NCBI RefSeq assembly: GCF_026151205.1
Contig: NC_087081.1
Span: 3,043,246-3,107,245 of the forward strand
DNA from: Bolinopsis microptera
Taxonomy: Eukaryota; Ctenophora; Tentaculata; Lobata; Bolinopsidae
Direction of reading: 5' to 3'
Length of the DNA stretch: 64,000 nt
Part shown: in pieces, positions 5,841-53,069 of the stretch
How positions within the stretch are numbered: the first letter of the stretch is position 1
Layout: each line of letters opens with the position of its first letter
The notes under the pieces: generated by a model
Told to the model about the DNA's origin: nothing
What the model saw: only the letters and a program-made list of their open reading frames with translations
The model's database searches: none
Translations under genes and position numbers: made by a program

Positions 5841-6309
5841 AATTTTAGAGAATCGATCTCTAAAACCTCTCAGAAGTGAGGAAGTGATAAAAAACCCCTA
5901 AATATGCTATATTGTTATGAGAAAACGAACTAATTGGACATTCCAATAGTATGTTTTATGTGTTTTTCCACTGCAGGGGCTAGTATGCTCACTACTAGTT
6001 GGAGTTGTCATGTACTCCCAGACCCGAGTGCTTTGGCCTCTTGACTTGAGATTGATTGTTTCTGCTCATTAATTTTATCCCTGTTACTTGTTATTATGTA
6101 TAAGTACAACACTAGGGTTATATTTTGTAGTCCGGTCTTTAAACATACCATAATATCACTAGTACACTGCACCTTAAATGTATAGTCAAGTACATTTGTA
6201 TCGTAACACATGCTTGGCTGGGGGATCATGTTTTGTGTCCGTTCGGTACCCTGTATTTTCAAAACGGACAAAAAGTAGGGCGGACAAAAACAGACAAAAC
6301 ATTTAGATG

Positions 6310-7712
6310 TCCTCCTCCTCCTAAGTCTTCCTCCTCCTGAGTCCTTCTCCTCCTCAGTCCTCTTCAGTCCTCTTCCTGACTCCTCGTCCTCGTCCTCGTC
6401 CTTCTCCTCAATCCTCCTCACCCTCCTCCTCAATCCCCTTCTCCTCCTCAGTCCTACTCCCAGTCCTCCTCCTTCTCCTTCTCCTTCTCCTCCTCCTCAT
6501 CCTCTGCATTTCTCCTCCTGATCCTCCTTCTCCTCCCCATCAGTTCTCCTTAGTCCTCCTCATAGTCGTCCTCCTCCTCCTGAGTCCTTCTCATCCTCCT
6601 CCACCTCCTGAGTCCACCTCCTGAGTCCTCCTCCTCAGTCCTCATCCTCCTCCTCAGTCATCATCCTCTTCCTCCTGAGTCCTCCCCAGTCCTCCTCCTC
6701 TTTCTCCTCCTCATCCTCCTCCTCCTTCTCCTCCTTATCAGTCCTCATCCTCTGTCCTCCTCATAATCGTCCTCGTCCTCATCCTCGTCCTTAGTCCTCC
6801 TCCTCCTTCTCCTCAGTCCTCCTCCTCCTCCGCAGTCCTTCTCCTCCTCGTCAGTCCTCCTCCTCGCCAGTCCTCCTTCTCCTTCTTCTCCTCCTACTCC
6901 TAAGTCCTCCTCCTCCTCCTCAGTCCTCCTCCTCCCTCTCATCCTTTTCCTCCTTCTCCTCCTTCTCCTCCTACTCCTAAGTCATCCTCCTGCTCCTCAG
7001 TCCTCCCCCAGTCCTCCTCCTCATCAGTCCTCCCCCAGTCCTCCTTCTCCTCCTCCTCATCCTCAGTCCTCCTCCTCATCATCCTCCTTAGTCCTCCTCC
7101 TCCTCAGTCCTCCCTAAGTCCTCCTCTTCCTCAGTCCTCCCTAGTCCTCCTTCTCCTCCTCCTCATCCTCAGTCCTCCTCCTCAGTCCTCCTCGTCCTTA
7201 GTCCTCCCCCAGTCCTCCTTCTCCTCATCCTCAGTCCTCCTCCTCAGTCCTCGTCCTTCTCCTTTTTAACAGTCCTCCTCCTCAGTCTTCCTCCTCGTCC
7301 TCGCTCTCGTCCTCCTCCTTCTCGTCTTCCTCCACACCAATCCTGCTCCTCTTCCTCAGTCCTCCCTCTCCTCTTCAGTCCTCCTCCTCCTCAGGCCTCC
7401 TCGGTCCTCCTCTTTCTCCTCAGTCTTCCTCCTTTTCCTCCTCCTCCTCATTTCTCTTCCTCATCCTCCTCCTCCTTCTTCTCTTCCTTCTCCTCCTAAT
7501 CAGTCCTCCTCCTAATCAGTCCTCCTCCTAATCAGTCCTCCTCCTCAGTCGTCCTCCTCCTCGTCCTTAGTCCTCGTCCTCATCGTCCTTAGTCCTCGTC
7601 CTCATCCTCCTAGTCCTCGTCCTCATCCTCCTAGTGCTCGTCCTGGTCCTCCTCAGTCTTCCTCCTCTGTCCTCCTCAGTCCTCCTTCTCCTCAGTCCTC
7701 CTCCTCCTCCTC
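6310..7712. repeat. 1.4 kb polypyrimidine (CCT)n-type minisatellite
   Basis: The plus strand is almost pure C/T built from TCCTCC units, with periodic CAGTCC or GAGTCC interruptions giving an irregular higher-order unit such as TCCTCCTCCTCAGTCC. The complementary strand is purine-rich and gives Glu/Arg-rich spurious frames (for example minus 6745-6942). I do not regard those as genes. Long purine/pyrimidine tracts with mirror symmetry can form triplex (H-DNA), and short-read assembly through them is unreliable. Confidence 0.9.
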
Positions 7713-8299
7713 ATCAGTTTACACAATTTATTGTTACTAAAATGTTTTTAAACGCATTTGAGTCTGTAACATATTGACATGTTACTGTTACTGACTCAAA
7801 ATGTGCCCGAGAATTTTTTTGTTTAACAGAGTTTTACTCTCCAGTACTATGGAAAAGTTGTTACATGATAAATAAAGATTTTGATAAATAAAGTGATTTT
7901 CATCCCTTTTAATGTTATTGAAAATTGTGTAGACTATTCTTTGTATCTAACTGAGGATTGGAAGTTTGAGAAAGGACCATAGTCATTAACCGTGCTACCC
8001 ATTTCTGCAGATAGCCTGTTACAAATTGTGGAGACAATTTAAATCAAAAGTTACTAAAGCGTTCGCTATTTGTTACGATTGTTATTACCAACCGTACCTC
8101 TTTCAATTGTGGACCGGGGTGGATGTTTCTGTCAAACAAGAGTTGGTACGACATTGTGTTGTTTTTCGGACGAAACGATTCTTGTTTGGAACAAGATACC
8201 GTTTTGGGGTTCTGGGACCACCACCAATCGATTTCTTGTCATATTTAAGTACAGAAATAGCTACCTATATCGCCTAGAAACCTCAGAGGGAAGATTTAA

Positions 8300-37200: not shown

Positions 37201-40200
37201 TGTTAACAGTGATGACGGTACATCTTACACCTGCTCTGTGACTGTCGGGTGAGTGACATCTCGTTATTATGTCATGTTGTCACGTGACTATGTCATCCTG
37301 TCACGTGACTGTGTCATCTTGTCACGTGACCTTGGCCTTAAAAAATAAAACATACGATAACCCACTCTAATCACGTGACACGTAGCTCCTTATGAGCACA
37401 TACCTGAGTTTCATTCACAGAGATGGTTCATACAAATACAATTTTAATTAAAGTTGTTTTAATTAAATTTGTTCAGAATTGCTTAGACGGCACGGTAATA
37501 ATTTAAACGGTCTGATTCATTGATAAGTATAACGAAGAAATGAGGAAACAAAACATCATGCAGTATAAAAGGAGCAAATATTTATGAAAATGGAAAAATT
37601 ATGAAAAACGAGCATCCTATTTTTATATATAATATATATAAAAATAGGATGCTCGTTTTTATTATATTATGTATCCTACAGGGATATTTAAAACATATAT
37701 TTAAAACTGCCTCCTCTCAGCGCGTGAAAATGTGGTCACGTGACACGTCCAGGGACACGTGACAGTAAACCTTGTAAACCTCGTGACAGTAAACCTTGTA
37801 AACCTCGTGACAGTAAACCTTGTAAACCTCGTGACAGTAAACCTTGTAAACCTCGTGACAGTAAACCTTGTAAACCTCGTGACAGTAAACCTTGTAAACC
37901 TCGTGACAGTAAACCTTGTAAACCTCGTGACAGTAAACCTTGTAAACCTCGTGACAGTAAACCTTGTAAACCTCGTGACAGTAAACCTTGTAAACCTCGT
38001 GACAGTAAACCTTGTAAACCTCGTGACAGTAAACCTTGTAAACCTCGTGACAGTAAACCTTGTAAACCTCGTGACAGTAAACCTTGTAAACCTCGTGACA
38101 GTAAACCTTGTAAACCTCGTGACAGTAAACCTTGTAAACCTCGTGACAGTAAACCTTGTAAACCTCGTGACAGTAAACCTTGTAAACCTCGTGACAGTAA
38201 ACCTTGTAAACCTCGTGACAGTAAACCTTGTAAACCTCGTGACAGTAAACCTCGTAAACCTCGTGACAGTATGTCCTTGACAAACTATTGATTCTGCATA
38301 TTCTAATAATTTCGTATAATTTGTCCGGTTCCCAATTTGTCAATATAACGTCTCCTGATTCTTGGAGCGAGGTGTTCACACTTCACACCTGTGCCGAGAC
38401 TGGTCACTAACTGGTCACTTACTGGTCACTTACTGGTCACTTACTGGCCACTAACCGGCAAATAACTGGTCACTTACCGGTCACTAACTGGCCACTGACT
38501 GGTCACTAACTGGTCACTAACTCCAGAACCTTCCACAGGGGTGCTGGCAAGAAAACTCAGATTGTTAGCATGGATATAATTCCCCCGGTCTCAGCTCAGA
38601 TTACATTTGTAGAGCAGCCCAAGTCTCAGATAATCTTTACAAACAGATATCCTACATTCTCTCTCAAGTGTTCTATCAACCTGGCCGAGTAAGTACCGGC
38701 CTTTTCTTCAGTTCATTTCAGTTTCCGTGCAAAGTATTACGATGAAATAAAAGACAATATTGAACTATAAAAACTAAAAACCAACAAACCTCAGGTTTAT
38801 TGGTGTAGAAGGAAGTATGATGCCAGTACTTTACTGGTTAAAGAACGGTAACCAGTTGGGCTTCTCTAGTCGGAGAAAGTCCACAACCAGACAAGACTCA
38901 GAGACCAATGTGTTGGAGAGCTCGATAGAGTTTGTTTCTCCGAATGAGAGTGATTTAGGTTCGTGTTTATGTTGTGGTTCCAGTTAGCCCTATTTTTTAA
39001 TGAAGTATGCTAACAACTGGCCGAGGAGATGCAAATCGCTTTTACTTGTAACTCAAACTTACATCACCTCCCGCTACCTTATCTTACGTTAAGTTGTTTG
39101 ATTTATCAGCTAAATATAACGCCTGTGGTAGGAATATATCAGTGTATTGCACGAGGCATAACACAACTGAGACAAGTAACAGCTTACGTAAACGTGAGGA
39201 GCACTGAGGGGGACTACAATATGGAGGTGGTGGAACCTAAATATGACTTTATCAGCGTTCCTATGACTGTAAGTATGATTTCATCAGTGTTCTGTGTTTA
39301 CTCAGGGGGAGCAGGGACAAAAGGAAATCGCGGTATGTGCGGGATCACGATTTTTCCCATTCTTTGCGACAAATTTTATATGTCGAGTCTGTTTGGCTTG
39401 TCGCAGTATCGCGATTTTTGGCCAAAATAATCGCGATTTTCGTTTTGTCCCTGTGGGGGAGTAGTACGTGGCTAGAAATTATATTATCATGTTTTTGTTT
39501 GTTTTGGTATATTTATGTCTTGTGCTATGCAAAAAAACCACACAATAAATTATCAAACGACTCCCGTAAGTTATGTGCCGGCATAGTTGGCGGATTTTAA
39601 AGGTGTTTGAAAATATCAAGTTTTTGCACAATTACAGTCATGTCATACAAGCATAAAATTGTGGCTGTATATGACTGATAGGAATTTACTTTACAACATC
39701 TTAACCACTGTATTTTTGCTAATCTTGGCTCAAGCTCTGCCGGATTTATTTGCTATGTTGTGAAAGCAAATTTAAAAAATATGGTAAAGTGACGGTCCCT
39801 TATTTACAGGTGTCGGCAGCCGAAGAACACTGTAGGTCCTGGATGACAAACGGTCATTTAGTGAGTATTATGAGCAGAAAAGAGGCGGATACTGTCACCC
39901 GACTTCTCAAACAAGAGAGTGAGTAAAACTCTTATCATCTGCTTAGTGTTATCTTGCACGTGGAGTAAAACTCTTATCATCTGCTTAGTGTTATCTTGCA
40001 CGTGGAGTAAAACTCTTATCATCTGCTTAGTGTTATCTTGCACGTGGAGTAAAACTCTTATCATCTGCTTAGTGTTATCTTGCACGTGGAGTAAAACTCT
40101 TATCATCTGCTTAGTGTTATCTTGCACGTGGAGTAAAACTCTTATCATCTGCTTAGTGTTATCTTGCACGTGGGCGTGAGCACTTTACGGACCTAGAGTT

Positions 40201-43727: not shown

Positions 43728-43793
43728 CTGGGCCGCGCTCAGCCTGTCATTCCGCCAAATCTTTATTATGTTAATGAACATAATAGCCTTCTC
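43728..43793 (+). repeat. 65-bp module shared with the GPCR relic
   Basis: Nearly identical to 53540-53604: both contain CTTACTGGGCCGCGCTCAGC, then CTGTCATTCCGCC and ATGAACATAATAGCC. It reads as a hydrophobic stretch (YWAALSLSFR, then MNIIA) in one frame at both sites. It is either a fragment of a second GPCR-like pseudogene or a dispersed repeat, and it lies just upstream of the LINE. Confidence 0.5.
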
Positions 43794-44044
43794 AAACATT
43801 TTATTACATTATCACTTCTCAAACATTTTATTACATTATGTTGTTATCTAGTCTTGCTGCTAAATAGATAAGCCGACAGTGCAGCAGCTCATCGTGACGT
43901 GGCTTAAACACTAATACTACGCACACTGACTACAACACTACAGATAACAGAGACCCCTAGGCTCGGTGGCCCCAATTTAATTGGGCCCCTCCTTCCACAT
44001 AAGTCCACCGTAGCCCTCCTTGAAGCGTAAGTTTACCTTTCTAC

Positions 44045-45637
44045 ATGACTGAATCGACGGAACGCCCGTTTTGTTTCTCAACTGCAACCTGTTTGGAATT
44101 GGTCGATAAACTCATTGTATCTCAACTCGACCGTGAATTGCTGCTCTTTGGAGCGACTGAAGATGACCTTCAGTTATGCAAGCAATCCAAGCAGAAAATG
44201 CTACGTGCACACATTCTTGACAGTCATAAGTGTACCTCTACATTAACCGAAACTACTGACAAACTTATCTCTCTAACTCAAATTTTTTCGAGATCGTCCA
44301 CTGATGCGATGACCGGCCTCCAGAACACCGTTAGTGAAGCACAGTCCCTTGTCCAGTCTCTACGTGACCATTCTGCTCACCCTCCTACTCAACCTACAAC
44401 CACCCTCCCCGAAATACCTGCACCACCAACACCGGTCCAGACTGTGGAACAGCCCTTCTCCAAGCTCGAAACTGGTGACCAGCTGCAGAGGTTTGACTTT
44501 AAGAGATTGGACTCTGAATTAACCTATGATAAAGTTTTCTCGAATAGAAAGGTTGCATATTTTGGCGATGCTCCTTACAAGTATTTAGGAGGGTACCACA
44601 GGGCAAAGCAATTAGACCCTGAGACGTACCTTGCTGAAATACTTGTAGCAGTTGATGATGTGTGCAAGACCAACAACATCAACTATAAGGATTTCAATAG
44701 CTGCATGATCACCAAATATGAATCACACGTCTCGTGTATACCTCCTCATTCCGATGATGAATCGTGTATAGTACCCGACAGCACTATACTTACCATTTCC
44801 CTGGGGGGTAAAAGGGATTTGGTTTTTCGTAGACGTCCTCCAGGCGAGTATCGCGATGAAACCGTGACAGTTCAACACGGCGACTGTTACACTATGACGC
44901 GAAAATCGCAGGACCTTTTTGACCATGCTGTTCCTCCGCAAACTCAGGCGGATTTTGAAGGTCCTCGAATCAGCTTAACCTTTAGACAGTTGGCCTCGGC
45001 ACATTCCAGAAAATCTAGCAGCCATCAGCTGCGACCTCTACCCCATCATAAAGTGAACCAGACCAAACGAGTGCTGATACTGTCTGACAGCAAAAACTGT
45101 AATTTTGACTGTTCTCAATTTCGTTCACCTGTCATAGCGTTCCGGGAAAACTTATTTTTCCTCCGCGACTTAAAGGAACACCGGGAATCGATTCAACAAG
45201 CCGACATTGTACTCATAAGTGCTGGCATAAACGATATCCAGAAAAACAGAGCGAGTGCCGTCCTGCTGCATAATCACATCAGAAGTTTCATAGAACAGTT
45301 CCCGCGCACTATGTTCTTATTCGATGCAGTCAGTCCACTATCGATACATGCTGACCGATTCAACACCCACAACGACATTATCCAGTACCTTAATGAACTC
45401 ATGTTCAAGTGCTCCCTTCACCATGACAACTTCAGACTCTTCGACAACTCAAGTTTTAGTCTCGCTCACCTCGCTCGTGACGGTCTACATCTTAATTATA
45501 TTGGACAGAGTGTATTATCAGATTGCTGGGTAAACTGTGTGCTCATTGGACTGGGGTTCAGGCGTGGACCCCTACCTCTACGTGAGCATTTTAAACGTAT
45601 GATATCTTATCCAATCCCTGGCCACTTTGGCACCTGA
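44045..45637 (+). CDS. LINE ORF1: AlkB-like dioxygenase fused to SGNH hydrolase (530 aa)
   Basis: Residues 1-145 are an unrecognised helical, then Pro/Thr-rich region. Residues about 150-316 form an AlkB-family 2-oxoglutarate/Fe(II) dioxygenase: FNSCMITKY at 217-225, the iron ligands H235-S-D237 in PPHSDDE, third ligand H294 in LFDHAVPP, and 2OG-binding arginines R308 and R314 in RISLTFR. Residues about 341-500 form an SGNH/GDSL hydrolase: nucleophile S349 in LSDSK, AGIND at 393-397 (N396 oxyanion), and D479/H482 in DGLHL. All catalytic positions are present in both domains. AlkB proteins remove alkyl lesions or methyl groups from nucleic acids. SGNH domains are known in ORF1 proteins of CR1-like LINEs, possibly as esterases. 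Direct repair or demethylation of the element RNA or cDNA is inference. Single exon, no breaks. The start is the first Met of the open frame. Confidence 0.85.
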   Translation: MTESTERPFCFSTATCLELVDKLIVSQLDRELLLFGATEDDLQLCKQSKQKMLRAHILDSHKCTSTLTETTDKLISLTQIFSRSSTDAMTGLQNTVSEAQSLVQSLRDHSAHPPTQPTTTLPEIPAPPTPVQTVEQPFSKLETGDQLQRFDFKRLDSELTYDKVFSNRKVAYFGDAPYKYLGGYHRAKQLDPETYLAEILVAVDDVCKTNNINYKDFNSCMITKYESHVSCIPPHSDDESCIVPDSTILTISLGGKRDLVFRRRPPGEYRDETVTVQHGDCYTMTRKSQDLFDHAVPPQTQADFEGPRISLTFRQLASAHSRKSSSHQLRPLPHHKVNQTKRVLILSDSKNCNFDCSQFRSPVIAFRENLFFLRDLKEHRESIQQADIVLISAGINDIQKNRASAVLLHNHIRSFIEQFPRTMFLFDAVSPLSIHADRFNTHNDIIQYLNELMFKCSLHHDNFRLFDNSSFSLAHLARDGLHLNYIGQSVLSDCWVNCVLIGLGFRRGPLPLREHFKRMISYPIPGHFGT

Positions 45638-46470: not shown

Positions 46471-49400
46471 ATGAACGAATCTCAGCGTTGCAACAAATGT
46501 AATACACGTATTCCTAAAGCACGTTCGTTCCTAATTTGCAGTCACTGCGACAAAATAAAACATATGAAATGCATGAAGTTATCTAAGTCTGAGGCAAAAA
46601 TAATTGTAGATTCTGGCTCTGCCTGGATATGTTATGACTGTATTTCCAGCGCCTTACCAGTAAATGCATGCCCCTCGGCAAAGCCACCGAGACAAGGGCC
46701 CGTCATAGGTCCTAAATTTAAAGTTCAATGCACATGCTGTAATGGCTGGATTTACTCCCCGGCCAACCTGAAAACCTGCCACTGGTGCGAATCTAAAGTA
46801 TATACCAAATGTCACTCCGACTCTTTAGGATGCAGAAATTGCTGTGAAAATATGATCCCGGGATACTATGTACATTGCTATCAGCTATACTCATTACATA
46901 CACATACTCACACCGGCGTAATCCACAATCCCTACGATCGCAATCAGTTGATTAACGAAATAGGAAATACAATTGACCAAGATCAGGAACTCGAATATTG
47001 GAATGAGATTTCTGATATTTTAGTTAGCTGCAATTACATGGAGCCGACAAATGTAAGTTCGTCAGGACCATGTGATCTTAAGATATTTACCTTAAATATA
47101 CGGGGACTTCTTAAAAACGTAGACAAATTAAGAGAAGATATATTCACGTACTCGAAGTATGATGTCCTTTGTTTTAACGAGACTAATCTCTTGCAGGATA
47201 AGCTTCCTAATGGTATTAATGACCTAGTGATTGAGGGATTTTATGAACCACTGTTACGAGATCCAATACGTAGTTCTGGTCGTGGTGGGGGTTTAGCAAT
47301 TTATATCAATACGCGCGTATGCGAGTCTGAAAATATTGAAAAATTCTTTCCCCAAAACTTTGATGTGACAGACAAGAGTGGTGAATTCATGTTGGTAAAA
47401 CTCCATAACTGCAAAGGCTTTAACAAAACAAAGATAATCGTCAATTATATATATCGGTCACCAGCATCAAAAAAATCCTGATAATTTTAACAAACTCATT
47501 GACTCCCTATTACACGGCATAGAAAGGCACTCGAGAAAACATACTATATTAGTCGGTGATTTCAATGTAGATCTTACACATTATGATACTGGCAAACATT
47601 GTCAAAATTTGATTGAAACTATGACTAAATACGGTTTCTTTCAGCTAGTCTCACGTCCCACACGTATCACTGATCACAGTGCCACTCTTATAGATCATGT
47701 TTACAGCAATAACGTACAACACACACACAGCTGCAATGTTCTTACTGTTGACCTGTCTGATCATCTAGCCACTCTTGTTACTATCTCACTTGGGCAATAC
47801 AGCCACATTGCAGGGAGTAGAAACGAACGACACAGAGTCGACCATGGAATGAATATTGAAAAACGTATGTTTAACGAGTCGAACAACCTTAAATTTATAG
47901 AATTAATTGGATCCGAAATGTGGGAGGAAGTCACACGTGAAAATTGTGCTGATGAACAATATAACAAATTTATTGAAATATACGGTCAGCATTATGATGA
48001 GGCATACCCAGTGAAAACCAATCATGTGCGCCGCAAATTTGAAAGGCAGGACCCCAAACCTTTTATGCTACCCTGGCTTGAAATTGCATGTGCTCGTAAA
48101 AACAAATTATTCCATGCCAAAATAGTGGACCCAACGGAGGAAAACTACAAGGCTTACAAAAAGCATAAGGCATTCTGCGACAAGCACGTCAATAAGGCAA
48201 AAGACAAATACTACAAAACACAATTTGATAAGTATAAAGATTGTTCAAAGAAACAATGGCAGCTGATCAACACTCTATTTGGCAGAAAATCTAAATCTCA
48301 TAACAAAATTAAACTCCAAAACGCCGACGGAAATATCATAAATAGTGACAGTGATGTAGCTGAGCACTTTAACTCTTACTTCTCCAACATTGCCACAAAA
48401 ATCAAAGATGCGATCAGCGCGCGTACTGTATTCGATCCAGGGGGTTTTAAACATTACCTTAGCAGCCCAGTTTCGCAGTCTATATTCGTAAGACCAACTA
48501 CCGAAAGTGAAGTTGAACAAATTATTAGCAAGCTTAAGAATAAATCCACTCAAGACACTAAAATTGAACCCCTAAAAATTGTAAAAGACTGCCCCTCCTT
48601 CTGTAAAGTCTTGTCCATAATCATTAACACATCATTTAGTCAAGGTATCTTCCCATCATCTCTCAAAATAGCTAAAGTTATACCAATTCACAAAGGAGGC
48701 AGCAAATCCGACGCCACTAACTATCGACCCATATCTTTGCTGTGCACCTTTTCCAAATTGTATGAAAAACTTATGCATAATAGAGTAATGGATTTCCTTG
48801 ACAAGAAAGGGTCGCTCTTTGAAGGGCAATATGGCTTCCGGCCAGGCCGATCCTGTGAGCATGTTCTTTTAGATGCTCAACACACGATTCTGAATTCCCT
48901 TGCCAAAAAGGAAGTTGCTCTATTACTCCTAGTCGACTTTAGTAAAGCTTTTGACGTTTTGTCTCATGATGTATTGATTGACAAACTCCAGCACTATGGA
49001 ATCCGTGGGCAAGCTTTGCAATGGTTTAAATCCTACCTGAGCACACGTCAGCAATATGTATGTTTGAATGGTATTAAATCAGCTCTTAAACCTATTACAT
49101 ACGGAGTTCCACAGGGCAGTATTATGGGACCTTTGTTATTCCTAATCTACATCAATGATATGCCAAATATCAACAGTATGATAAAGTTTATACTCTACGC
49201 TGATGATGCGAACATCATAATAAAAGGAAAAAATGCAAACGATGTTATACAAAAATTCAACCAATTCTCCCACGAGTTTGTACGCTGGGTTGACTGTAAT
49301 GGACTTGCACTTAATCTAAAAAAGACCTGCTATATGCTTTTCGGTGTTAGAAATACTGATAATACTCCAAATATTCATATTGCAGACACACAATTAGAAC

Positions 49401-50134: not shown

Positions 50135-50383
50135 AAGTTACTGGACACAACGGTCATTATATCAGTTTAGTGAATTAGTTAATTAGTTAATTAGTAAATC
50201 AGTTATTAGTCATATGGTTATTATTAAGTACTATCACAGTGCTGGCAAGCACGACCGTTGCATTTATTGTGGGTATACTATGTTCCCCATTTACTATTAT
50301 ACCCCCTTTACTATTATACCCCCTTTACTATTATACCCCTTTTACTATTATACCCCCTTTGGTACACGTTACAAGCCTCTTTT

Positions 50384-50440
50384 GTGCACGCGAAGCGTGC
50401 ACTCCGGCCGGAGGCGGCGGCCGAAGGCCGCCGCCTCCGG
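50384..50440 (+). repeat. tandem GAA-loop hairpins
   Basis: GTGCACGC-GAA-GCGTGCAC at 50384-50402 is a perfect 8-bp stem with a GAA triloop. 50408-50422 and 50426-50440 form a perfect 15-bp GC stem around a second GAA triloop (50423-50425). CTCCGGCCGGAG at 50402-50413 is itself palindromic. The core GCGAAGC is the well-known unusually stable DNA mini-hairpin. Copy B (60874-60930) keeps both hairpins with one mismatch in the long stem. Confidence 0.95.
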
Positions 50441-50981
50441 CAGGAGTTTTCCAGGCATTAAGACTCATCGGAAGTCGTTCAGCAGATTTATTTTTAGTTC
50501 AAAACATTCTAATTTGATGTCAAAGATGACAGGAATAAAAAATAGTTATGTTCAGATTTTTAAGAAATTTGCATAAAATACTCGCCAGCACTGTTATACG
50601 AAATTCGGTAAAAAACCCAAAATCGCCATATTCAGGTGCCCTAAAAACCATGTTAAAATTGAGTTAGAGATCTGAAATTTTTCAGAGCGTCTAGACGTTG
50701 ACCAAATTGACTGCAAAAAAAGTTTCAGGTTTCAGGAGCATCGGGAAATGGGTTTTCTAGAACCCCTGTTTTACGACAGATTGTCGGGACATATACATAC
50801 AGATATACAGATATATATATTCAGGGATAGACGCTTTGCCAGTCAATTGTAGCCTGTATTTAAGTGTCCATAGATTCAAAAGTATAAAAGATACAGCCAT
50901 TTCCGACCACAGGTCTTGCAAATAATTGTTTACACTTTAGTTTACATTGTATACAAAATTTATTTGACGTCATAAACACCC

Positions 50982-50999
50982 CTTGATGACGTCATCAAG
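50982..50999. repeat. 18-bp perfect palindrome with CRE core
   Basis: CTTGATGACGTCATCAAG, identical at 60306-60323 in copy B. The centre TGACGTCA is the consensus CRE/ATF site. A second TGACGTCA-like sequence, TTGACGTCATAA, precedes it at about 50963-50974 in copy A only. Confidence 0.85.
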
Positions 51000-51841
51000 T
51001 TAACCGTTTTTAAAACTTGATTTTTGACAAAGTAATAACTTTTAAAATTAATTTTAACCCATTAAGGAGTAATTTTATTCAAAATCTGAGGAAATTTTCA
51101 TCTTAGATAATTGTTCAAGCATTCTGAAAATCTACCGGAAAGTTTTTCTAGCTTGCTCCTTCATAAAGATATTTGTCATTGAAGTTTGTGCTTTTTTGAA
51201 GAATTATTTTATAAAAACGTCAATTTTGCGATTTAGTATTCTTTGGTGTTGGGCCATGCCTTGGGTTGTGGAGCTCAGTTCTGCTTCCTATAGGTATAAA
51301 TTGTGCATTAGGCTAGTTTTAAAGTTGAAAATCGAAAAGTTGCACACGTGGGGACACGCCCAAATTGATAGAAAATTGCTAAAATCACTGAAAATTGCTG
51401 TTTTCGTCATTTTCTGTCAACTTTAGAGTGCCGTTGTGATTACAGTTCTTCTTGAAATACTTTGAAACTTTGCATGCTTATCAAGCTATATATAAAACAA
51501 TTACATACAAAAATTTACGGCGATTCAATATTGGATGCGCATGCAACGTCCGCTCAAAGTTTGCACGTGCGAAAGGTGAGAATTTTGCTCATTCGTGATT
51601 TCCAACAAATTCTGCTTTGCCACGACAGTTTAATGTCATTATATATGAATTTAATGTCAACTTGAATGAGTATTAAGTGGTATATTCAGTCAGTGATGGA
51701 CCGATATGCTTACCTAAACACAAGGAAATGTTTTTAAAGGAAAAATTTCGAAATCGTTGAAACTTCCTCCTTATTATAATGAAGATATCAGTTTATATTT
51801 CGACTTTATAAAGTACCCTGACATTATAATCAAAAAGAGAT

Positions 51842-52356
51842 GATATTTTACCAAAACCCATAATCATGGGTAGAGTGGACCGCTGCCAGTGTCTCTCTTT
51901 CCCAAACAAAAGGAAATGATATTAATTTGATTGACCGTTCTCAAATGCAAAATGATACCGAGAATGAAATCGGTCGCTCGCTTTTCCCATTCATTTACAA
52001 TTGTAATAGATTAAGAAGAACTACCCAAAGGCAGCTGTACTCGGCAATAAAGATTCAATAAACTTCAGCTAATGCAATAAGTGATAACTACCACCCTTAC
52101 CCCGAAATACTAGGTATCGACCCGAACGCAACCCAAAGAGATTTTTACAGCATCTGATTGACATGTAATCAATCGAAAATTATTACAATTCGTAAGCCGT
52201 GAATGAATGGGAAAAGCGAGCGACCGATTTCATTCTCGGTATCATTTTGCATTTGAGAACGGTCAATCAAATTAATATCATTTCCTTTTGTTTGGGAAAG
52301 AGAGACACTGGCAGCGGTCCACTCTACCCATGATTATGGGTTTTGGTAAAATATAT
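51842..52356. repeat. large terminal foldback (MITE-like), copy A
   Basis: The arms, roughly 51842-52010 and 52190-52356, are near-perfect inverted repeats starting TTTTACCAAAACCCATAATC and reading inward through GAGAATGAAATCGGTCGCTC. The loop is about 180 bp. Transcription would give a long hairpin RNA. The same foldback, with a shorter loop, is at 59096-59456, and a diverged end lies at 63405-63440, so the foldback may also exist apart from the composite element. Confidence 0.9.
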
Positions 52357-53069
52357 TATATGATATTACAAAAATAGACTATGAATATATATTTGCACAC
52401 AAAAAAACCAGAACAAACTGATCACAGACTAGCGGCAACTAATATTAATGGATAAGCCACACATCCTAAATTCCAGGTCCATATTTACACTGCCACATTC
52501 CCCACTATCACTATTTTCCTATCAGCACAAACCGTAATTAATTGATTTCAACAATCACAAACACTACATATCCAAACTAATGACATGGCATAGCAATATC
52601 TACGATATCCTAAATCAGTCCCTAACAAACTTAGCGCGAGTCTGAAAGGCTGTTGGAAGCACAGAGTGCTCCATATTTTGTTTTTATCAATAAACCCTTT
52701 TTTTTTCATTTTCATTTTCTTTTTTTTATAAATTTATTAACTGCGTGCAAATTTGTGTTTCAGATTTGATCTATTTATGATATATATTTATGATTATGTA
52801 ATAAAGTTATTAATATTATATTCGTAAACATTGGCTGGCTTACAAACCAGTCCCCAAACAAACAAACAAACAAACAACAGTGTTGAATGCAGATCGGAAA
52901 ATTAAATTCACATTCAAGTATTATAATTATATTATGGTTTATTCTATATAAGTATAACAGTACAATATGAATCAGAATTAGGTTTCCCGAGAATTAGATT
53001 TCGCGAGAATTGGGTTTCAAATACTTTTGGTGTGGATGCAACATCACCAACAGCATAGACTCATAGAGT

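Follow-up and report, generated by a model that had tools for sequence, protein, structure and literature searches.

An AlkB-type dioxygenase domain fused to an SGNH hydrolase domain in ORF1 of a multicopy ctenophore LINE

Does a frame that encodes two enzyme domains beside a reverse transcriptase (RT) belong to a LINE as its ORF1, and if so, what could those enzymes do for the element? The question is raised by a 530-aa frame in the window (the whole 64,000-nucleotide stretch of Bolinopsis microptera DNA analyzed here), which fuses an AlkB-type dioxygenase to an SGNH hydrolase. A sequence-only reading had proposed that this frame is the ORF1 of a LINE, that both enzymes are catalytically complete, and that the element carries its own nucleic acid demethylase, directed against alkylation damage or against host marks such as m6A or m1A.

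Layout and copies of the element

Without a 2,116-bp insertion, the LINE measures 6,965 bp (about 6.97 kb) and consists of a 5' UTR, ORF1, 833 bp, an ORF2 encoding a PHD finger, an endonuclease, and an RT, a 3' UTR, and (AAAC)n, in that order. Its features in the window are as follows.

43788..44044, + strand: 5' UTR; homology to 5'-complete copies begins at 43788-43832
44045..45637, + strand: ORF1, 530 aa, in the order coiled coil, AlkB, SGNH
44234..44371, + strand: long helix, residues 64-109, in the structure model a probable coiled coil (self-association)
44441..44998, + strand: AlkB-type Fe(II)/2OG dioxygenase domain, residues 133-318
45062..45559, + strand: SGNH/GDSL hydrolase domain, residues 340-505
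46471..47481, + strand: 5' part of ORF2, with the PHD finger (residues 7-57) and the start of the endonuclease, 94% identical to P0059
47609..50134, + strand: 3' part of ORF2 in another frame, with the end of the endonuclease, the RT, and the C-terminal part, 96% identical to P0059
50135..50234, + strand: first part of the 3' UTR; all eight other fetched copies match it to 50233 or 50234 at 99%
50235..52350, no strand assigned: insertion of another repeat in the 3' UTR, later than the LINE and no part of it
52351..52868, + strand: last part of the 3' UTR, ending in (AAAC)n, 98.7% identical to copy L033

The copy in the window is damaged, with ORF2 split over two frames and the 3' UTR interrupted by the 2.1-kb insertion; ORF1 is intact. 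The 3' part of ORF2 matches RVT_1 (E, 9.9e-35). P0059, from the protein database, holds the PHD finger, the AP-type endonuclease, and the RT that the window has in two frames in a single ORF2 frame of 1,223 aa, and open ORF2 frames of 1,234 aa occur at several loci of the genome. At the 5' end, a 27-bp unit present 1.9 times (43788-43839) opens the UTR and, in a comparison of 5' junctions, varies among copies; the short repeats found there differ in number and length from copy to copy. Beyond 50233/50234, all eight fetched copies go on with sequence unlike that of the window, in which the 3' UTR picks up again at 52351. A 90% inverted copy of 50230-52013 lies at 61061-59287, and two bases are common to both junctions of the insertion, which suggests that the 2.1-kb insertion is a DNA transposon. 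Elsewhere in the window, positions 6309-7718 form a long, degenerate tandem array that is strongly asymmetric between strands (GC skew of -0.59 over 6001-8000), and 72-bp tandem repeats at 37758-38271 are about 99% identical and open in three frames.

Linkage between ORF1 and ORF2 was tested within the window's own genome (264.65 Mb in 232 contigs). The ORF1 search scored 81 matches among 790 candidates, including short fragments and SGNH-only pieces that were all kept in the count, and the search with the RT part scored 54 among 6,975. At 27 of the 81 ORF1 matches (0.03 expected), a P0003-like ORF2 follows downstream in the same orientation, no more than 4 kb away, and the linked ORF2s are 27 different ones among the 54 scored. 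Between the same two sets, no ORF2 lies upstream of ORF1 on the same strand, and one lies within 4 kb on the opposite strand. Linkage was found for 13 of the 18 matches with 92-100% identity, for 13 of the 39 with 44-87% (all but two of which fall in the range 44-60%), and for 1 of the 24 with 28-37%; the lower values in the divergent classes are partly due to the scoring of just 54 ORF2s. The other 54 ORF1 matches have no listed ORF2. Of 30 loci that were read directly (L001 to L030), 21 have an ORF2 start like that of the window within 1.5 kb, and 5 (L019 to L023, of which L023 has an internal deletion) have another, PHD-less ORF2 start; the remaining 4 are L008, L009, L025, and L030, with the ORF2 of L009 sitting 2.9 kb on.

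The copies also behave as those of a LINE. Four of them (L011 to L014) begin inside ORF1, at positions equivalent to 44152, 44270, 44458, and 44783, and continue into ORF2; this is the 5' truncation of LINEs. The 3' end is common to seven of the eight fetched copies, the eighth (L039) stopping in an A run some 65 bp short of it, and tails are (AAAC)n or A rich. No convincing target-site duplications were found in the nine copies compared; some LINE clades make none.

The spacing of the two ORFs in the window, 833 bp, could be read as a host gene, or part of another element, lying by chance beside a LINE. The 27 linked pairs, with no ORF2 upstream on the same strand and a single one on the opposite strand, argue against such a reading, as do the copies truncated within ORF1 that run on into ORF2 and the families that retain the ORF1-ORF2 order at only 44-60% identity in ORF1. 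The truncations and the scattered places of the copies do not suggest one duplicated segment either. A host gene was rejected on the linkage counts and the truncated copies, and we give chance adjacency of any kind next to no credence. The element is a real multicopy LINE, and the AlkB-SGNH frame is its ORF1 rather than an adjacent host gene; the association with ORF2 on which the sequence-only reading depended recurs at many loci of the genome.

Relatives were found in Mnemiopsis leidyi (54% identity for ORF1; for ORF2, 57% and 58%, within the best 120 of 2,729 matches), and none were found in the viral-contig and genome-contig databases. One database entry assigned to a Planctomycetes MAG (P0053) is a fragment of this type of ORF1, an assignment that is probably due to eukaryotic contamination. 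ORF1 fragments with 81-93% identity are also present at C11:646220-648403, one of them within a 1,854-aa open frame.

Domains of ORF1 and selection on them

Profile search, a structure model, and alignment all place an AlkB and an SGNH domain in the one intact 530-aa frame, with every catalytic residue that had been named from the sequence in place. The AlkB part has the double-stranded beta-helix fold with the HxD...H and Rx5R motifs (H235, D237, and H294; R308 and R314) along with Y178 and Y180. The SGNH fold and the Ser, Gly, Asn, and Asp/His of its four blocks are present in the window's family, in the window as S349, G394, N396, D479, and H482. The helix of residues 64-109 was modeled with block pLDDT values of 52-80, and coiled-coil proteins match this region weakly in the profile search (best E, 0.012). 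ORF1 is of the Type IV (esterase-type) ORF1p class, which combines an esterase with a coiled coil, the latter being predicted here from the model and the weak profile matches.

Each of the 30 genomic rows that span the five AlkB ligands has all of them (31 were aligned; the L014 row, cut at its first Met, is without the first two ligands), so that the AlkB residues are not mutated across copies. The five ligands are also kept in all eight genome families compared, including families at 26% ORF1 identity, and no row of the A1 alignment that covers the iron and 2OG ligands departs from them. In three families, D1 to D3 (L032, L045, and L046), Asn replaces the SGNH Asp, and the five AlkB ligands are retained. 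This conservation bears on the idea that the AlkB part is kept mainly as an RNA-binding module, with catalysis incidental. Such a module would suit the esterase-type class, that of ZfL2-1, which is described as being without defined RNA-binding domains in the available text of one report (PMC3905857), while RRM and CCHC domains are reported from other ORF1 types (PMC4120745, seen in part). However, the invariance of the iron and 2OG ligands down to 26% ORF1 identity argues for retained catalysis, and we consider the binding-only role improbable.

Between families, the codons of the AlkB part also point to constraint. In nine between-family pairs, third codon positions differ in 0.59-0.72 of codons and second positions in 0.18-0.40, with dN of 0.29-0.84; NG86 dS is saturated between families, and position-wise differences and dN are therefore quoted in place of a dN/dS ratio. 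The smaller differences at second than at third positions, together with the retained ligands, indicate purifying selection on the AlkB part when diverged families are compared. Neither outcome that the sequence-only reading had named as refuting it, a frame that never neighbors this ORF2 or AlkB residues mutated in most copies, was thus found. Among ten copies of family A, that of the window, synonymous and nonsynonymous changes number 9 and 4 in AlkB, 5 and 2 in SGNH, and 3 and 6 in the coiled-coil part. Pairs within family C1 are without this pattern, and single pairs of recent copies are uninformative: L019 and L020 differ by 6.2 synonymous and 16.8 nonsynonymous changes, none of the latter in either enzyme domain; L019 and L023 differ by 0 synonymous and 2 nonsynonymous changes in AlkB and by 2 of each in SGNH; and L020 and L023 differ by 1 synonymous and 2 nonsynonymous changes in each domain.

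Other AlkB loci and exchange of ORF2 partners

The AlkB profile PF13532 has at least 151 matches in the genome (150 scored among 587 candidates), a figure that is well under the true number, as the window's own locus is not among the rows listed, and that includes host-like and Helitron matches. Most of the listed matches lie in open frames of about 350-900 aa. Eight further open-frame loci (L050 to L057) were picked from the frame-size classes of these matches; they represent fewer than eight independent families, since L052/L053 and L056/L057 are close pairs. AlkB scores over the cut-off in all eight. Lipase_GDSL_2 matches six of them at E ≤ 0.1, always below its cut-off; of the other two, L055 aligns at the SGNH residues despite the lack of a match, and L056 is closely related to L057, for which the match is weak. 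In seven of the eight, a frame for an endonuclease, an RT, or both follows on the same strand, the exception being L052, with an RT on the other strand and none on its own.

Three ORF1 architectures were found: coiled coil or helix, AlkB, and SGNH; PHD-like finger, AlkB, and SGNH; and AlkB, linker, and SGNH. The finger ahead of AlkB at L054 and L055 (matches under the Pfam cut-off) resembles that of known PHD ORF1s, whereas in the window's family a PHD finger opens ORF2. A search of the protein database with five of these ORF1s returned 36 proteins at E ≤ 1e-10, all annotated with PF13532. Three other PF13532 loci (L059 to L061) look like host genes, two of them ALKBH3-like and one ALKBH2-like.

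The pair of domains is not confined to LINEs. At L058 (C10:16871500-16881000), a Helitron polyprotein frame of 3,388 aa, of which 2,206 aa were fetched, encodes, from the N terminus on, SGNH, AlkB (E, 4.6e-21), DUF6570, and Helitron_like_N (E, 3.2e-22). The long frames at L062 and L063 likewise open with the SGNH-AlkB order, as judged by eye, the Helitron parts lying outside the stretch covered, and six listed PF13532 rows sit in frames of more than 2,000 aa. A 986-aa frame at L031 (1485-4442, - strand; C1:18539005) has a helicase-like part, with weak UvrD/ResIII matches under the cut-off, and an SGNH part 47% identical to that of the window ORF1, and is without AlkB; its N terminus is presumably NERD-like. 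A second candidate of this kind lies at C8:8269542.

ORF1 and ORF2 do not share one history. Between families A and C1, ORF1 is 44% identical and ORF2 25%; between A and D2, the values are 26% and 59%. The ORF2 of family C1 (L041, 455-4084; L019 to L023) is 1,210 aa long, belongs to another lineage, and is PHD-less, with hydrophobic segments at the start of the frame. The ORF1s of A, B, and C1 to C3 group together (99/97), whereas the ORF2 data reject both C1+C2+C3 (AU P = 1.7e-6) and A+B+C1+C2+C3 (P = 1.9e-5) as clades. When C1 is omitted, the ORF1 data reject the ORF2 grouping A+B+C2+C3+D2+L051 (P = 2.7e-6), and the ORF2 data reject the ORF1 groupings D1+D2+D3 (P = 0.0023) and D1+D2+D3+L051 (P = 2.1e-4). 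The groups tested were picked after the identities had been seen, and the branches of the C1 ORF2 and of several ORF1s are long. These conflicting groupings indicate that ORF1 and ORF2 have recombined at least twice. Such recombination has been reported for other ORF1 types (PMC4120745, seen in part).

In an unrooted tree of the AlkB domain, a 100/97 branch sets 18 rows from transposable elements, including the Helitron, apart from the rest. The L056/L057 type falls with the host ALKBH2/3-like rows and may represent a second capture; its branches and those of the Helitron are long.

Substrate, role, and known systems

At E ≤ 1, the AlkB structures that profile A1 matches are those of ALKBH3 (best E, 5.9e-27) and ALKBH2 (5e-22) alone, with no match to ALKBH5, FTO, ALKBH1, or ALKBH8 at that threshold. 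Profile A2, built from five divergent ORF1s, ranks ALKBH2 (5e-22), ALKBH3 (3.6e-20), ALKBH8 (1.6e-9), and E. coli AlkB (3.4e-8), followed by the DNA N6-methyladenine demethylase 8haz (7.5e-5) and ALKBH5 (0.028). By comparison with solved structures, the domain appears to be of the ALKBH2/ALKBH3 type and not of the ALKBH1, 5, 8, or FTO type, and a clear sequence relation to the m6A demethylases ALKBH5 and FTO was not found among these matches. The likeliest chemistry for a domain of this type would be the removal of m1A and m3C rather than of m6A.

This affects the sequence-only reading unequally: a LINE ORF1 with an AlkB-SGNH fusion is what was found, but its suggestion of m6A as a target is weakened, the match to ALKBH5 being far poorer than those to ALKBH2 and ALKBH3. 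An eraser of m6A, 6mA, or another host mark on the RNA or DNA of the element, by which it would escape silencing, has a precedent in an ALKBH5-like protein encoded by Ty3/Gypsy elements that removes m6A in vitro (PMC9289625, seen in part), and the A2 match to 8haz is compatible with it. However, A1 finds none of ALKBH5, FTO, ALKBH1, and ALKBH8, A2 matches ALKBH8 far better than ALKBH5, and in human cells m6A is reported to help L1, with ALKBH5 suppressing it (PMC7873242, seen in part), and we regard a role as an eraser as unlikely.

Tyr178 and Tyr180, each present in 50 of 50 rows, align with Tyr141 and Tyr143 of ALKBH3. According to the available part of one report (PMC10816986), ALKBH3 requires Tyr143 to keep the flipped base in place, its substrates are m1A and m3C in single-stranded DNA (ssDNA) and RNA, and the strand-selecting triad is a polar RED in ALKBH3, which keeps it off double-stranded DNA (dsDNA), and VFG in ALKBH2. 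The ORF1 residues at the place of the triad are mostly polar, although this place borders the end of the alignment; VFG is found in the host's ALKBH2-like gene. In structure comparisons with Foldseek and VIA-align, ALKBH2, a dsDNA enzyme, ranks level with or above ALKBH3, with ALKBH2-DNA complexes as the top matches, and A2 also ranks ALKBH2 first, so that the substrate of the domain may be DNA. Acting on DNA, the domain might repair m1A and m3C in single-stranded cDNA, in the nicked target at integration, or in ssDNA generally, which would fit the presence of SGNH-AlkB in the Helitron at L058 and at the N terminus of the long frames at L062 and L063. Against this stand the first place of ALKBH3 in A1, the mostly polar triad residues, and the packaging of RNA by LINE ORF1 proteins, and we hold action on DNA to be possible though rather doubtful.

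The role of ORF1 proteins in LINE mobility is an old open question. The explanation that we favor, at roughly even chances, is that ORF1p cleans the RNA template of the element ahead of target-primed reverse transcription, with membrane anchoring by the SGNH part. Oligomers of ORF1p would coat the element's RNA, and the SGNH part would anchor the particle to lipid membranes, a role that has been proposed for ZfL2-1. Kept on the RNA in this way, the AlkB part would oxidatively strip methyl groups from the Watson-Crick face (m1A and m3C), and ORF2p would then not be stalled in target-primed reverse transcription. We infer the demethylase activity, the RNA substrate, the benefit to reverse transcription, the RNA coating, and the membrane role alike. 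In the available text on OTTR, m1A hinders the R2 (non-LTR) RT used and AlkB treatment relieves this, although the treatment altered the capture of intact tRNA modestly and untreated tRNAs were captured as well (PMC12140624), so that m1A does not stop an RT of this kind completely. Template cleaning has further points against it: the Asn that three families have for the SGNH Asp, the AlkB changes between L019 and L023, and, for ZfL2-1, an esterase that did not bind oligo(A) in an ORF1p class without defined RNA-binding domains (PMC3905857).

A pure RT-template role does not explain the SGNH-AlkB of the Helitron. Helitrons presumably move as ssDNA. Since a Helitron also carries the two domains, their benefit may extend beyond reverse transcription, for example, to ssDNA repair or to countering host defense. 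A broader and more tentative proposal is that AlkB-SGNH is a portable cassette of many ctenophore LINE lineages and Helitrons, a self-encoded keeper of template fitness that erases methyl lesions blocking RT or replication. If this were true, a genomic parasite would carry its own nucleic acid repair enzyme as a standard replication factor. A repair-type dioxygenase in ORF1p, selected across families with the ORF2 partner changed, suggests that template (or ssDNA) chemistry is a limiting factor in retrotransposition. The transposon-encoded modifiers of nucleic acids gain another enzyme class, and the element is a source of ALKBH2/3-type domains already joined to an ORF1 protein.

Among the open-access full-text matches listed, no recognizable description of AlkB in a LINE was found. 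Zebrafish ZfL2-1, with the Type IV ORF1p of CR1/L2 LINEs, shares the coiled coil and SGNH esterase in ORF1 and the endonuclease and RT in ORF2 (PMC3905857 and PMC4120745, in the parts available). Its SGNH esterase is reported to bind phospholipids and not oligo(A) (PMC3905857). A2 matches the solved ZfL2-1 ORF1 esterase (4c1b_A; E, 9.5e-4), which neither the A1 profile nor the window's own SGNH part reaches by sequence. AlkB is absent from these accounts in their available text, with no mention of AlkB, oxygenase, or dioxygenase in PMC4120745 or of oxygenase in PMC3905857, and the PHD-bearing CR1/L2 ORF1s described in the former have the PHD alone or with RRM or Tnp22, not with AlkB. Plant RNA viruses of the Alphaflexi-, Betaflexi-, and Closteroviridae are, like the LINE, RNA replicons with an AlkB, postulated to maintain their RNA (PMC9289625, in part); the replicon differs. 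The Ty3/Gypsy elements of Phalaenopsis encode an AlkB-family enzyme with intact cofactor residues but are LTR elements of one orchid lineage, with a separate ORF of the ALKBH5 type active on m6A in vitro (PMC9289625, in part), whereas in the LINE of the window an AlkB of the apparent ALKBH2/3 type is fused to SGNH in ORF1 and occurs in several families. The closest precedents are the esterase ORF1p of ZfL2-1 and the ALKBH5-like ORF of the orchid Gypsy elements (PMC9289625).
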